From contig LR990730.1 of assembly GCA_905142475.1 (NCBI GenBank), positions 3,472,001-3,536,000 of the forward strand: a stretch of DNA of 64,000 nucleotides. The letters run 5' to 3'. Under the pieces are notes generated by a model. It made no database searches. It was not told the origin of the DNA and saw nothing but the letters and a program-made list of their open reading frames with translations. The DNA comes from Xanthomonas hydrangeae. GTDB taxonomy: Bacteria; Pseudomonadota; Gammaproteobacteria; Xanthomonadales; Xanthomonadaceae. Positions 2,542 to 57,188 of this stretch are shown here, piece after piece (the stretch's first letter is position 1; each line of letters begins with the position of its first letter). The position numbers and the translations under genes are program-made.

Positions 2542-4482
2542 TCAGCGGCCGATCGCGGCGCGTTGGCTGCGCCAGTGCGCCTGCCAGGCCTGGAACATCA
2601 GCACCGTCCACAGATGCGTATGCCATTTGCGCTCGCCGCCGTTGAAGTCGCGCCACAGCCCGGCCACGGTGTCGGCAGCGAACACGCCGTCGCGCTCCAG
2701 GGTGGCATGCGCCAGCAGATCGTCGGCCCAGCCATGCAGATCGCCGCGTAGCCAGGCGCTGACCGGCGCGCCAAAGCCGCGCTTGCCGCGGTAGACCATC
2801 GGGTCGGGCAGATAGCGGCACAGCACGCGCTTGAGCAGATACTTGCTGACCCCGTCGCGGTACTTCAGCGACAGCGGCAGCGACCAGGCGAACTCGGCCA
2901 CACGCCAGTCCAGCAGCGGCGCGCGCGCTTCCAGCCCCACCGCCATGGTGGTGCGGTCCACCTTGCACAGCAGATCATCAGGCAGATACGCGGCAAAGTC
3001 GGCCAGCATCATCGCGTCGGCCGGCGTGCCGGAGCCGTGCAGCGGGTCGGCCAGGCTGTAGAAACTGTCGGGCTCGGTCGCGCCCAGCACCACCGCGGCC
3101 GGATCGCGCCAGCGCGAAATGCGGTTGCGGTAGATGTCGCCGATGCCGCGTGCGCCGGCCTCGGCCACCAGCGCGGCCAGGCCGCCGGTGCGCGAGGACT
3201 CGCCGTTGCGGCGTGCCGCCAGCGCCATCAGCCGCCGCAGCGGCCCCGGCACCAGCCCATGCATGCGCCAGTTGCGCAGCGCACGCTGGTAGCGGCCGTA
3301 GCCGAAGAACAACTCGTCGCCACCATCGCCGGACAGCGCCACCGTCACCCCGCCACGCGCCAGCCGTGCGACCAGCGCGGTTGGCACCTGCGAGGCATCG
3401 GCGAAGGGCTCGTCGAACATGTCCGGCAGGGTCGGCACCACTGCCAGCGCGTCGGCGCCGCTGACATACAGCTCGGTGTGGTCGGTGTGCAGATGCGTGG
3501 CCACTTCGCGCGCCAGCGGCGCTTCGTCGTGATGCGAGCCTTCGAAGCCAATGCTGAAGGTGTGCACCGGCTGGGCGCTCTGCGCCTGCATCATCGCAGT
3601 GACGATCGACGAATCGGTGCCGCCGGACAGGAACACGCCCACCGGCACGTCGGCCACCATGCGCAGCGCCACCGCATCGCGCAGCACCGCATCGAGCTGT
3701 TCCTCGGCCTGCGCATCGCTGCCGGTGAACGGTGCCGCCAGCGCGCGCTGCATCGCCTCGCGCGCGTTCCAGAACGGCTGCTGCGCCTGGTCCGGCCGAT
3801 GCGCCGCCGCGCCGGCCGCCACCATCTGCGCATCCAGCCGCAGCACCCGCCCGGGCATCAACTTGAAGGTGCGCTCGTGGATGCAGGCCGGCGCCGGGAT
3901 GTAGCCCAGCCGCAGCAGCAAGGTCAGCGCATTGCGATCGACGCCGTTATCGAACTCCGGGTGCTGCCACAGCGCCTTGAGTTCGGAACCGAACACCAGG
4001 GTGTCGCCGGCCCAGCCGTAATACAGCGGCTTCTTGCCGACGCGGTCGCGGGCAAGAGACAGGCAGTTGTCGCGCTCATCCCACAACGCCAGCGCGAACA
4101 TGCCGTTGCAGCGGGTCAGGGTGTCGTCCAGCCCCCACTCCACCACCGCCGCCAACAGCACTTCGGTGTCGGAATGACCACGGAAGCGGTGCCCGAGCGC
4201 GGACAAGGCCGCGCGCAGCTGCGCGAAGTTGTAGATCTCGCCGTTGTAGGCCAGCACATAACGGCCATCGGCCGAGCGCATCGGCTGATGGCCCAGCGGC
4301 GACAGATCCAGAATGCTCAAACGTTGATGCGCCAGCGCCACGCCGGCCTGCGCATCGCACCAGGTGCCGGCATCGTCGGGGCCGCGATGACGCAAGGCGG
4401 CGCCCATCGGCCGCACCAGCGCATCGAGTTGTTCGCCATGCATGCGTGGCGAGGCCAGCAGCAGTCCAACCAATCCGCACAT
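2542..4482 (-). CDS. Asparagine synthetase-like glutamine amidotransferase (AsnB superfamily, 646 aa)
   Basis: A class-II (Ntn) glutamine amidotransferase domain comes first: Cys2 nucleophile in MCGLVGLL, then RHRGPDD and YNGEIYN. An AMP-forming synthetase domain follows, with the PP-loop SGGTDSS near residues 286-292 and LSGDGGDELFFGYGR near 380. At 646 aa it is longer than the housekeeping enzyme at 54070-55764 and has a different C-terminus. Paralogues of this length are often found in polysaccharide or natural-product clusters where they amidate other carboxylates; here the only partner is a GST 31 bp upstream on the same strand. AGGAG precedes the ATG. Amidation is a safe inference, but asparagine as the product is uncertain. 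Confidence 0.88.
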   Translation of the reverse strand: MCGLVGLLLASPRMHGEQLDALVRPMGAALRHRGPDDAGTWCDAQAGVALAHQRLSILDLSPLGHQPMRSADGRYVLAYNGEIYNFAQLRAALSALGHRFRGHSDTEVLLAAVVEWGLDDTLTRCNGMFALALWDERDNCLSLARDRVGKKPLYYGWAGDTLVFGSELKALWQHPEFDNGVDRNALTLLLRLGYIPAPACIHERTFKLMPGRVLRLDAQMVAAGAAAHRPDQAQQPFWNAREAMQRALAAPFTGSDAQAEEQLDAVLRDAVALRMVADVPVGVFLSGGTDSSIVTAMMQAQSAQPVHTFSIGFEGSHHDEAPLAREVATHLHTDHTELYVSGADALAVVPTLPDMFDEPFADASQVPTALVARLARGGVTVALSGDGGDELFFGYGRYQRALRNWRMHGLVPGPLRRLMALAARRNGESSRTGGLAALVAEAGARGIGDIYRNRISRWRDPAAVVLGATEPDSFYSLADPLHGSGTPADAMMLADFAAYLPDDLLCKVDRTTMAVGLEARAPLLDWRVAEFAWSLPLSLKYRDGVSKYLLKRVLCRYLPDPMVYRGKRGFGAPVSAWLRGDLHGWADDLLAHATLERDGVFAADTVAGLWRDFNGGERKWHTHLWTVLMFQAWQAHWRSQRAAIGR

Positions 4483-54069: not shown

Positions 54070-55764
54070 TTACGAAGCCAACGCCTGTTCGTGCACGCCG
54101 GCAATCGCACGGCCGGACGGGTCGGCCATCGCAGCAAAACTCGCATCCCAGGCAATGGCGGTCGGCGACGAACACGCGATCGACTTGCCGCCAGGCACTG
54201 TCTCCGCAGCCGCCTGGCTGGGGAAGAACTGCGCAAACAGCGTGCGATAGAAATACGCCTCCTTGGTCTGCGGCGGGTTGACCGGATAGCGCTTGTCGGC
54301 CGCGGCCAACTCGCGATCGCTCACATGCGCGGCGGCATGCGCCTTGAGTCCATCGATCCAGCCATAGCCCACGCCATCGCTGAACTGCTCTTTCTGTCGC
54401 CACAGAATCGACTCGGGCAAATAGCCGGCGAACGCTTCGCGCAACACGCCCTTTTCCATGCGCATGGCGCCGCTGCTGGTCTTGTCGATCATCTTGAAAC
54501 TGGCATCCATGCGCATGGCCACGTCCAGGAACTCGCGATCCAGGAACGGCACGCGCGGCTCCACACCCCAGGCCATCATCGACTTGTTGGCGCGCAGGCA
54601 ATCGAAGTTATTGAGCGCGTCGAGCTTGCGCACCAGTTCCTCGTGGAATTCGCGCGCGTTCGGTGCCTTGTGGAAATACAGATAGCCGCCGAAGATTTCG
54701 TCGCTGCCTTCGCCGGAGAGCACCATCTTGACGCCCATCGCCTTGATCCGCCGCGCCAGCAGAAACATCGGCGTGGAGGCGCGAATGGTGGTGACGTCGT
54801 AGGTCTCGATGTGGCGGATGACTTCCGGCAGCGCATCCAGACCTTCTTCGAAGGTGTATTCGAAGCCGTGATGCACCGTACCCAGCGCGGTGGCAGCGAC
54901 TTCGGCGGCGGCCAGATCCGGCGAGCCTTTCAAGCCGATCGCGAACGAATGCAGGCGCGGCCACCAGGCTTCGGTGGTGTCGTTCTCTTCGATGCGATGA
55001 CGTGCGTAGCGCGCGGCGACTGCGGCGACCAACGACGAATCCAGACCGCCAGACAGCAATACGCCGTACGGCACGTCGGTCATCAACTGGCGATGCACTG
55101 CACGCTCGAACGCCTCGCGCAATTCCTGCAACTGCACCTGCACGCCCTCCACTTCGGCGTATTCGCGCCAAGCGCGCTCGTAGTAGCGGCTCAATGCACC
55201 GGTGGCGCTGTCGTACCAATGGCCGGGCGGGAACTGCGCGGCATCGGCGCAATCGTCGACCAGCGATTTCAGTTCGGAGGCCACCCGCAAACGCCCCTCG
55301 CGATCATGGCCCCAGTACAGCGGCACCACCCCGATCGGGTCGCGCGCGATGATCACCCGCCCGGCCGCCTTGTCCCATAACGCGAACGCAAAGATGCCGT
55401 TGAGGCGGTTGAGGTAGGAGGCCGGCGCATCCTCGCGATACAGCGCGTTGATCACCTCGCAATCGGAGCCGGTCTGGAAGGCGTACGGCTGCACCAGCTC
55501 CTGCTTGAGCTCGCGATGGTTGTAGATCTCACCGTTCACGGCGAGGGCGAGCTGCCCATCTTCCGACAGCAACGGCTGCGAACCACCGGCCGGGTCGACG
55601 ATGGCCAGCCGTTCATGCACCAGGATCGCGCCGGTATCGACATACACGCCGCTCCAGTCGGGACCGCGATGGCGCTGCCGTTGCGAACATTCCAGTGCCT
55701 GCCGGCGCAATGCCTGCAGATCGTCACCGGGTTGCAGGCCGAAAATACCGAAGATGGAACACAT
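54070..55764 (-). CDS. asnB: Asparagine synthetase (glutamine-hydrolysing)
   Basis: Makes asparagine from aspartate, glutamine and ATP. 564 aa, close to E. coli AsnB (554). The Ntn glutaminase domain has nucleophile Cys2 (MCSIFGI), RHRGPDWSG and VNGEIYNH; the synthetase domain has PP-loop LSGGLDSSL (near residue 244) and LSGEGSDEIFGGYLYFH (near 343). AGGAG lies 7 bases before the ATG. It follows dapE on the same strand across a 293-bp leader that contains an Asn-rich peptide and an intrinsic terminator, so expression is probably set by attenuation responding to charged Asn-tRNA. Confidence 0.96.
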   Translation of the reverse strand: MCSIFGIFGLQPGDDLQALRRQALECSQRQRHRGPDWSGVYVDTGAILVHERLAIVDPAGGSQPLLSEDGQLALAVNGEIYNHRELKQELVQPYAFQTGSDCEVINALYREDAPASYLNRLNGIFAFALWDKAAGRVIIARDPIGVVPLYWGHDREGRLRVASELKSLVDDCADAAQFPPGHWYDSATGALSRYYERAWREYAEVEGVQVQLQELREAFERAVHRQLMTDVPYGVLLSGGLDSSLVAAVAARYARHRIEENDTTEAWWPRLHSFAIGLKGSPDLAAAEVAATALGTVHHGFEYTFEEGLDALPEVIRHIETYDVTTIRASTPMFLLARRIKAMGVKMVLSGEGSDEIFGGYLYFHKAPNAREFHEELVRKLDALNNFDCLRANKSMMAWGVEPRVPFLDREFLDVAMRMDASFKMIDKTSSGAMRMEKGVLREAFAGYLPESILWRQKEQFSDGVGYGWIDGLKAHAAAHVSDRELAAADKRYPVNPPQTKEAYFYRTLFAQFFPSQAAAETVPGGKSIACSSPTAIAWDASFAAMADPSGRAIAGVHEQALAS

Positions 55765-55832
55765 GGAAACACTCCTGAAAAAACTGCGGGGGTTGGCGGC
55801 CGGTGGAAGAGCGTGCTGCACGAGAATGACAC

Positions 55833-55867
55833 CCATAAAAAAACCCGCATCGGCCGATGCGGGTTTT
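55833..55867 (-). terminator. Attenuator terminator before asnB
   Basis: On the minus strand AAAACCCGCATCGG / CCGATGCGGGTTTT is a 14-bp perfect palindrome followed by a run of seven T in total. It lies 69 bp upstream of the asnB ATG and 30 bp after the leader-peptide stop. An intrinsic terminator in this place, between leader and gene, fits transcription attenuation. Confidence 0.9.
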
Positions 55868-55986
55868 CTGATTCCTGGGCGTTTGCTGTACTTCGCCTAG
55901 TCGCAGATCCGCATCGGCCGCGCACGATTATTCGCGCGCAGATTGTTGCGGTTGGCGTTATTGAGGTTGGCGAGGCGAAGGACCAT
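55840..55986 (-). promoter_or_regulatory. Asparagine-responsive attenuator (leader, antiterminator, terminator)
   Basis: Leader segment 55909-55920 (minus strand CGGCCGATGCGG) is exactly complementary over 12 bases to CCGCATCGGCCG in the 5' half of the terminator, so it can form an antiterminator. A ribosome stalled on the Asn codons at 55968-55942 would leave this segment free and allow read-through. A ribosome that reaches the stop at 55897-55899 would cover it and let the terminator form. All elements needed for the classical his/trp-type mechanism are in order. The mechanism is inferred, not demonstrated. Confidence 0.8.
55897..55986 (-). CDS. Asparagine-rich leader peptide of asnB
   Basis: A 29-codon frame on the minus strand from ATG at 55986 to TAG at 55897. 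Asn occupies residues 7, 9, 10, 12, 14, 15, 19 and 20 (8 of 29), using both AAC and AAT, far above the window's average. The rest is mainly Arg, Leu and Ala. No clear ribosome site is seen, which weakens but does not exclude translation. Composition and position point to a sensor of Asn-tRNA charging, like the His or Trp leader peptides. Too short to be predicted by ordinary gene finders. Confidence 0.75.
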   Translation of the reverse strand: MVLRLANLNNANRNNLRANNRARPMRICD

Positions 55987-56057
55987 GCAGCCGACGCTAA
56001 CGGTTCGTTTTCGATGGCGCAACTGTTTCAGCGGCAACGACGGCGGCAGACGGGACA

Positions 56058-57188
56058 TCATTCGACCAGTAGCCGCTCGATCAATGTGCGATAGAGCGTC
56101 GGCAAGGCGTCCAGATCGGCCACGCGCACATGCTCATCGACCTGGTGGATGCTGGCGTTGACCGGGCCGACCTCGATGCATTGCGCACCCAGCGGCGCGA
56201 TGAAACGCGCATCCGAGGTACCGCCGCCAGTGCTCTCTTCCGGCGCTGCGCCGGCAAACTGGCCCAGCACCCCGCGCGCGACGCTGCGCAAGCGCCCTTC
56301 GGGGGTGTAGAACGGCTCGCCGCTGCGATGCCAGCGCAACGAATACTCCAGCGTGTGGCGATCCAGCACTGCGGCGATCTCCGCTTCCAGTCGCGGCGCA
56401 TCCCAATGCGGGGTGTAGCGCAGATTGAAGGCCACCTGCAGCTCGCCCGGGATCACGTTGTTGGCGCCGGTGCCGGCATGGATGTTGGAGATCTGCAGGC
56501 TGGTCGGCGGAAAACTTTCGAAGCCCTCGTCCCAGCGTCGTGCGACCAACTCGGCCAATGCAGGTGCTGCCAGATGGATCGGATTGCGCGCCTTGTGCGG
56601 ATACGCCACATGCCCCTGCACGCCTTTCACCGTCAGCGTGCCGGACAGGCTGCCGCGGCGGCCGACGCGCAGCAGGTCGCCCAATCGCTCGGTGGACGAC
56701 GGCTCGCCGGTGATGCACCAATCGATCGCCTGCCCACGTTGGCGGAACAGCTCGGCCACCCGCCGCACGCCATCGATGGCATCGCCTTCTTCGTCGGAGG
56801 TCAGCAGCAGCGCCAGCGTGCCGGTGTGCTGCGGATGCGCGGCAACGAACTGTTCGGCGGCGACCACGAATGCGGCCACTCCACTCTTCATGTCGGCGGC
56901 GCCGCGCCCGTACAGCACACCATCGCGAATCTGCGGGTCGAACGGATCGCTGGTCCACGCCTCGCGCGGCCCCGGCGGCACCACATCGGTGTGGCCGAGC
57001 AGCACCAGCACCGGCGCACCGCTGCCGTGCGTGGCCCATAGATTGTCCACCTCGCCCAGGCGCAGGTGTTCGAGAGCAAATCCGGCGCGCGCCAGACGCT
57101 GCGCGATCAGCTCCTGGCAGCCGGCATCGTCGGGCGTCACCGACGGGCGGGAAATCAGTTCACAGGTGAGGTCAACAATGTCGGACAT
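56058..57188 (-). CDS. dapE: Succinyl-diaminopimelate desuccinylase
   Basis: Di-zinc M20-family enzyme removing succinate from N-succinyl-LL-diaminopimelate in lysine and peptidoglycan synthesis. 376 aa, the usual length. Zinc ligands are visible in GHTDVVPPG (His67), [10 protein letters not shown] (Asp100) and [11 protein letters not shown] (catalytic Glu, then Glu ligand), and GGTSDARF and the closing [11 protein letters not shown] supply the rest. It works two steps after DapD, which is encoded in the same cluster. It lies 44 bp downstream of the ArsC-like gene. Confidence 0.96.

Follow-up and report, generated by a model that had tools for sequence, protein, structure and literature searches.

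The minus strand of the window (the whole 64,000-nucleotide stretch of Xanthomonas hydrangeae DNA analysed here) carries, in this order, dapE (56058..57188; TIGR01246, 553.8 bits), a 29-codon leader reading frame rich in Asn codons, a predicted intrinsic terminator and asnB (54070..55764), an arrangement that raises the question of whether asnB is controlled by attenuation. The trp, his, leu, ilv, thr and phe leaders are ribosome-mediated attenuators of proteobacterial amino-acid operons, and a handful of amino acids have textbook attenuators of this kind. We consider, with a probability of roughly 0.92, that the leader controls asnB by ribosome-mediated transcription attenuation in response to charged Asn-tRNA. 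This reading had been put forward in the original prediction, and it gains support from comparison: the leader occurs in 116 of 120 close relatives, its pairing exceeds that of permuted partners, and the stall geometry fits.

The leader, the terminator and their shared pairing

The leader ORF (55897..55986, minus strand) extends from an ATG at 55986-55984 to a TAG at 55899-55897, as rechecked on the sequence, and encodes the 29-residue peptide MVLRLANLNNANRNNLRANNRARPMRICD with 8 Asn, so that the length, strand and Asn content first described are borne out. Against a background Asn frequency of 1.5%, taken from three proteins of the window, the probability of at least 8 Asn in 28 residues is about 7×10−9 (plain binomial, for an ORF picked out beforehand). 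The intrinsic terminator predicted at 55837..55867 on the same strand, the presence of which with a T-run ahead of asnB had also been claimed, consists of a perfectly palindromic stem of 12 bp, a 4-nt loop GGCC and 7 T. The distance of 69 bp that had been given between it and asnB fits a count from 55833; from the last T to the asnB ATG there are 72 nt. A general terminator scan that returned 3 sites, against 4.4 expected, missed this terminator, probably because the T run was drawn into the stem, leaving too few T after it.

Within the leader ORF, the antiterminator half at 55909..55920 (segment 2, CGGCCGATGCGG, read from 55920 to 55909) is the exact reverse complement, over 12 bases, of 55862-55851 (segment 3, CCGCATCGGCCG), which comprises the 5' half of the terminator and its loop on the minus strand. 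Both the exact complementarity and the position of the stop codon just past segment 2 agree with what had been described at this locus. An intrinsic terminator thus stands between leader and structural gene, as predicted by sequence here and, together with an Asn-rich ORF, in 116/120 close relatives, and the pairing that competes with it is conserved, as judged from the 12-base complement, permutations and covarying positions.

The downstream gene encodes a glutamine-hydrolysing asparagine synthase B (NCBIfam PRK09431.1, 866.6 bits against a cut-off of 499; Pfam Asn_synthase and GATase), which is 98% identical to AsnB of Xanthomonas euroxanthea and groups with Xanthomonas in the AsnB tree. A longer form from 55836 was rejected, and the start of asnB was taken at 55764, with a Shine-Dalgarno-like AGGAGT (55771..55776, minus strand) ahead of it and an ATG-TGT that gives an N-terminal Cys, presumably that of class II amidotransferases. 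The window also contains a second asparagine-synthase-like gene on the minus strand (2773-4479; TIGR01536, 467.9 bits). The frame before this gene looks glutathione-S-transferase-like by eye, and no Asn leader was seen ahead of the gene, likewise by eye.

Conservation among relatives of AsnB

To describe the distribution of the leader, we collected 154 upstream regions selected from AsnB matches, of which 102 are from the family of the window (32 of them from its own genus), 51 from other families of the order and 1 from the class. The detector, which was written after inspecting sequences, requires at least 3 Asn in 12 stop-free codons, an in-frame stop and a terminator 15-45 nt further on. 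It was positive in 118 of the 154 regions, compared with 3 of 462 dinucleotide shuffles. When the regions are sorted by AsnB identity to the window, 116/120 are positive at 70% or more and 2/34 below, at a cut chosen after seeing the results and with 32 of the 120 belonging to the window's own genus. Among the four misses, no leader was seen at L056; L066, L106 and L122 have, by eye, an Asn-rich ORF together with a hairpin whose T run is poor.

A second set of 80 AsnB matches listed comprises 35 loci of at least 73% identity and 45 of at most 66%. Among the matches listed, 31 of the 35 closer loci are positive; 10 of the 35 are places already in the first set (L271 is L106), which leaves 22/25 among the matches listed as new evidence. 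The positive loci of this second set include those of Xanthomonas, Stenotrophomonas, Lysobacter, Luteimonas, Dyella and Rhodanobacter. The four misses of the 35 listed comprise one record of Rhodococcus, L271 on a MAG contig of Lysobacter, and two further MAG contigs that carry the labels of other phyla. At 66% identity or less, 1 of the 45 loci among the matches listed is positive (L281), and no leader was found at the asparagine-synthetase loci from other families of the class (0/70, from 0/30 and 0/40). The wider comparison that had been suggested therefore holds for close relatives (116/120 at 70% identity or more), but not for other families of the class. Of the 34 leader-labelled rows in a tree of 81 AsnB proteins, built by a quick maximum-likelihood method, 33 fall in one clade of 36 (SH-aLRT 100), and the leader label changes 5 times as against 26.2 times in shuffles, with L271 labelled by eye.

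A few loci deserve separate mention. L281 (JAAXJP010000265.1, MAG Rubrivirga sp., labelled Rhodothermota; AsnB 63% identical to the query's first row) has a possible Asn leader, RNLTNANRNPV, and a strong terminator before asnB, which could reflect independent origin, transfer or misbinning. L146 (G380, another family of the order) has an Asn-containing leader and a terminator upstream of asnB; its -10-like hexamer lies, by eye, about 25 nt before the ATG, which indicates that it is not leaderless. Three close AsnB relatives without the leader are labelled Rhodococcus, Holophagales and Deltaproteobacteria (L247, L251 and L262), which could reflect transfer or contamination.

The nucleotides of the leader drift across relatives, and what is kept are the Asn runs, the position of the stop and the leader/terminator pairing, with compensatory changes in some groups. 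Leader sequences are as different as NNANRNNLRANNRARPMRVCD in Xanthomonas, NNNNRNNASLPRAGD in Lysobacter-like and NNNNRANNNANRWRARA in Rhodanobacter loci. Across the 118 leaders, Asn runs recur about 10-16 codons ahead of the stop, with Asn at codon -10 in 77% and at codon -11 in 73%, and the distance from stop to terminator is 23-39 nt. The original prediction had been staked on conservation of the Asn codons and of the alternative pairing in relatives, and both are conserved (116/120; permutation P = 0.0002-0.0036).

The pairing is also stronger, on average, between a leader and its own terminator arm than between swapped or shuffled partners. The duplex between the leader end and the 5' arm of the terminator averages -22.1 kcal/mol over the 118 loci, compared with -18.4 when arms are swapped and -13.2 when leader ends are shuffled, and it lies below a z of -1.5 against its own shuffles in 75% of them. 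The remaining quarter are weaker than this threshold and mostly outside the Xanthomonas type, and many Lysobacter-type loci are among the weak ones. After identical pairs were collapsed (leaving 38, 22 and 39 in three sequence groups), a leader still pairs better with its own arm than under within-group permutation (P = 0.0004, 0.0002 and 0.0036, respectively). Moreover, in the Lysobacter type the leader motif CCGC-G-GGCC goes with C in the arm in 15 loci and CCGC-A-GGCC with T in 5, with no mixed case among the 20 motif-matching loci (P = 6×10−5, Fisher's test, ignoring kinship). We infer that this change serves the antiterminator, because the terminator of those five A/T loci keeps just a G.U pair at the covarying place. 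The terminator loop of the Xanthomonas type has nothing to pair with in the stem, yet GGCC stands on both sides of the antiterminator pairing in 33 of 45 loci; L110 is changed on both sides (GGTC with GACC) and L090 is mismatched. Such compensatory changes, like the conservation counts, are not independent of kinship.

The same comparison bears on the idea that the hairpin serves only to terminate the upstream dap operon, possibly in both directions, and that the Asn-rich ORF lies next to it by chance. In the window dapE does end 71 nt upstream of the leader ATG, and the perfect palindrome of the stem would be in keeping with this idea. However, leader, terminator and asnB occur without a dapE C-terminal motif within 420 nt upstream in 73/118 loci (by a simple motif search, so that dapE may lie further off), and across families the Asn runs and the pairing are kept while the nucleotides change, which makes this explanation very improbable.

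Transcript start, ribosome position and the predicted switch

The leader ATG had been noted to lack an obvious ribosome site. This observation stands, and its likely answer lies in the sequences just upstream: a -35-like hexamer, TTGCGC (56017..56022, minus strand), and a -10-like hexamer, TAGCGT (55994..55999, minus strand), which ends 7 nt before the leader ATG, form a predicted promoter. Under a rule written after inspecting sequences (upstream of an in-frame ATG or GTG, a -35 of the TTG type separated by 17-19 nt from a -10-like hexamer), the pair is found in 102/118 leaders and lacking in 16, and in 95 of the 102 the -10-like hexamer ends 6-7 nt before the start codon, the other 7 having a different spacing. 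As a control, 10 of 1191 other ATG or GTG codons in the same regions have such a pair, 4 of them at the 6-7 nt spacing. A sigma-70 scan under a stricter rule gave no promoter between 53000 and 59000, and the pair came from comparison. The spacing of 6-7 nt makes a leaderless mRNA probable, with the transcript starting at the leader start codon, and this would explain the missing ribosome site. A 54-codon ORF at 56061-55897, which overlaps the dapE stop, was rejected as the real leader: the promoter-like pair lies inside it and the inner ATG is the recurrent start. Because the promoter-like pair precedes the leader and the dapE motif lies within 420 nt in just 45/118 loci, the data suggest that asnB is a unit apart from dapE.

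We then considered where a translating ribosome would stand on the assumption that it covers -14 to +15 relative to the P site. When the A site holds the first codon of the last Asn pair, the front edge of the ribosome would be at leader base 67 in the window, and segment 2 begins at base 68. Under this assumed footprint, 118/118 leaders have 2 or more Asn codons at which a ribosome could stall without covering segment 2, and a ribosome at the stop covers at least half of segment 2 in 106/118 and less than half in 12/118. In masked folds run up to the 5' arm, with the stall placed at the last Asn codon from which a ribosome does not reach segment 2, the antiterminator exceeds 0.5 when stalled in 101/118 and falls below 0.2 at the stop in 109/118; both hold in 93/118, and the mask test failed in 25/118. 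A stalled ribosome that frees segment 2 and a terminating one that covers it, the behaviour expected of an attenuator, are thus provided for by footprint in 118/118 and 106/118 loci, respectively, and jointly by the folds in 93/118.

The proposed switch would work as follows. RNA polymerase would start at or beside the leader ATG. With ample charged Asn-tRNA, the ribosome would reach the stop and cover segment 2, the terminator would form, and transcription would halt before asnB. With asparagine short and Asn-tRNA uncharged, the ribosome would stall in the Asn runs with its front edge short of segment 2, which would then be free to pair with the 5' arm of the terminator, so that the polymerase would continue into asnB.

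The likeness to the his, trp, leu and phe attenuators that had been drawn holds for the ORF, the terminator and the competing pairing, but in the window no strong protector hairpin sequesters the antiterminator. The folds of the window gave no strong protector (1:2) hairpin; a local hairpin predicted at 55920..55939 (minus strand), which has the last Asn-Asn codon pair (AATAAT) in and next to the loop, shares a single base with the antiterminator segment. Without a ribosome, and before the 3' arm is made, the antiterminator exceeds 0.5 in 85/118 loci, including 32/32 of the window's genus. Because the protector hairpin is lacking and the antiterminator is the default in these 85/118, the leader is filed as an attenuator and not as a trp-type one. 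In full-length equilibrium folds of the window RNA, the terminator is favoured even when the stall is placed at the last Asn pair, but not when it is placed at Asn codon 7 or 14. Since the terminator wins at equilibrium despite the last-pair stall, the modelled switch would have to depend on kinetics, and without translation it may read through by default.

A broader proposal can be built on these folds, which we offer tentatively and rate, as a whole, at somewhat below even odds. The asnB leader would be a leaderless attenuator without protector, the untranslated RNA of which folds into the antiterminator by default, and termination would therefore need a ribosome that starts and finishes the leader. 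In this case asnB would also answer to the supply of ribosomes competent for leaderless mRNA, the default would be opposite to that of trp (on without translation), and this Asn system would be how asnB was ancestrally controlled in Xanthomonadaceae and Rhodanobacteraceae.

The leader RNA or the Asn-rich peptide might instead be a product that acts elsewhere, as a small RNA or a peptide, with attenuation absent or secondary. The Sinorhizobium meliloti trp leader is reported to act elsewhere in this manner; the asnB leader is a self-contained unit from promoter-like pair through terminator, and C-terminal residues recur among leaders (e.g., RARPMR.CD and LPRAGD). This recurrence is explained by the coincidence of these codons with the antiterminator segment, and the peptide ends vary between groups while the pairing is kept. 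In addition, no second leader copy was found by BLAST of the own genome, where the strong matches are the locus itself and its own palindrome and four further matches all have E of 0.08 or more (BLAST would miss a diverged copy, and leaders in relatives were sought upstream of asnB only). It thus seems very unlikely that such a role replaces attenuation; a trans role may exist in addition to it.

The amino acid probably sensed and the place among known systems

That asparagine would be the amino acid sensed is indicated by the codons themselves. When the detector was run for each amino acid in the 120 close relatives, at least 5 codons in 12 were found for Asn in 98, Ala in 44, Arg in 37 and others in at most 8, and at least 6 in 12 for Asn in 70, Ala in 22 and Arg in 12. 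An upstream ORF enriched in the amino acid of the pathway is thus seen both in the window (8 Asn in 29 codons) and in 98/120 relatives. In 102 leaders, Asn accounts for 20.1% of residues, a 13-fold enrichment over the three window proteins, although this figure is inflated because leaders were chosen for at least 3 Asn. Sensing of another amino acid or of general translation speed is the least credible reading: Arg and Ala are frequent (16.7% and 17.9% of residues in the 102 leaders, with clusters of at least 3 in 12 codons in 109/120 and 108/120 regions, respectively), but they are enriched just 1.7-fold and 1.3-fold, they fall behind Asn at 5 in 12 codons, where leaders were not chosen for Asn, and the regulated gene makes asparagine. 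AsnRS is above its cut-off in 77 of 79 genomes of the family, this genome included, and the charging of Asn-tRNA can therefore follow free asparagine.

The asnB leader resembles the trp, his, leu, ilv, thr and phe attenuators in its short ORF rich in codons for the product of the pathway, the biosynthetic gene downstream, the antiterminator overlapping the end of the ORF and the competing intrinsic terminator. It differs from them in its amino acid, Asn, and its target, asnB, in having no protector hairpin in the window, and in being probably leaderless. The trpL attenuator of S. meliloti is reportedly leaderless too, with a leader peptide ORF that starts at the transcript start, a likeness that for the asnB leader is drawn from promoter spacing only; S. 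meliloti trpL senses Trp and belongs to another class of bacteria. Firmicutes have Asn-specific T-box elements, which have asparagine genes as targets, like the asnB leader, and presumably share with it the input, uncharged Asn-tRNA. T-boxes, however, bind tRNA directly without a leader ORF, whereas the asnB leader has such an ORF and no T-box match: at the Rfam gathering score the whole window gives a tRNA only, and no T-box is among the 15 matches to E 5 in 55700-56100. Likewise, no Rfam leader family reaches its gathering score in the whole window or, at relaxed E-value, in 55700-56100. The best sub-threshold match is sraL (22.9 of 39 bits), and the rest are also leaders and small RNAs, among them, on the minus strand, Thr_leader (21.9 of 55) and Leu_leader (21.1 of 50).

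A full-text literature search, mostly of papers outside subscription, returned no description of an asparagine attenuator, so novelty is provisional. The main text of an attenuator survey (PMC2965389) contains neither "asparagine" nor "asnB". In the passages retrieved from other papers, Asn codons are mentioned for another reason (PMC5009743), and asnB is named as a tested gene (PMC3771888) or as a carrier of signature indels (PMC3568101), with the leader unmentioned in the passages of the last two. The attenuation mechanism is already known, and the asparagine case provisionally appears to be undescribed.

For annotation, a short Asn-rich ORF ahead of asnB in these genomes should be considered a likely regulatory leader and not a hypothetical protein. 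The Asn leader recurs in two families that include crop pathogens and soil bacteria, on a gene that makes asparagine, and its probable leaderless mRNA would make it a clear-cut and testable example of an attenuator that works without a ribosome-binding site.
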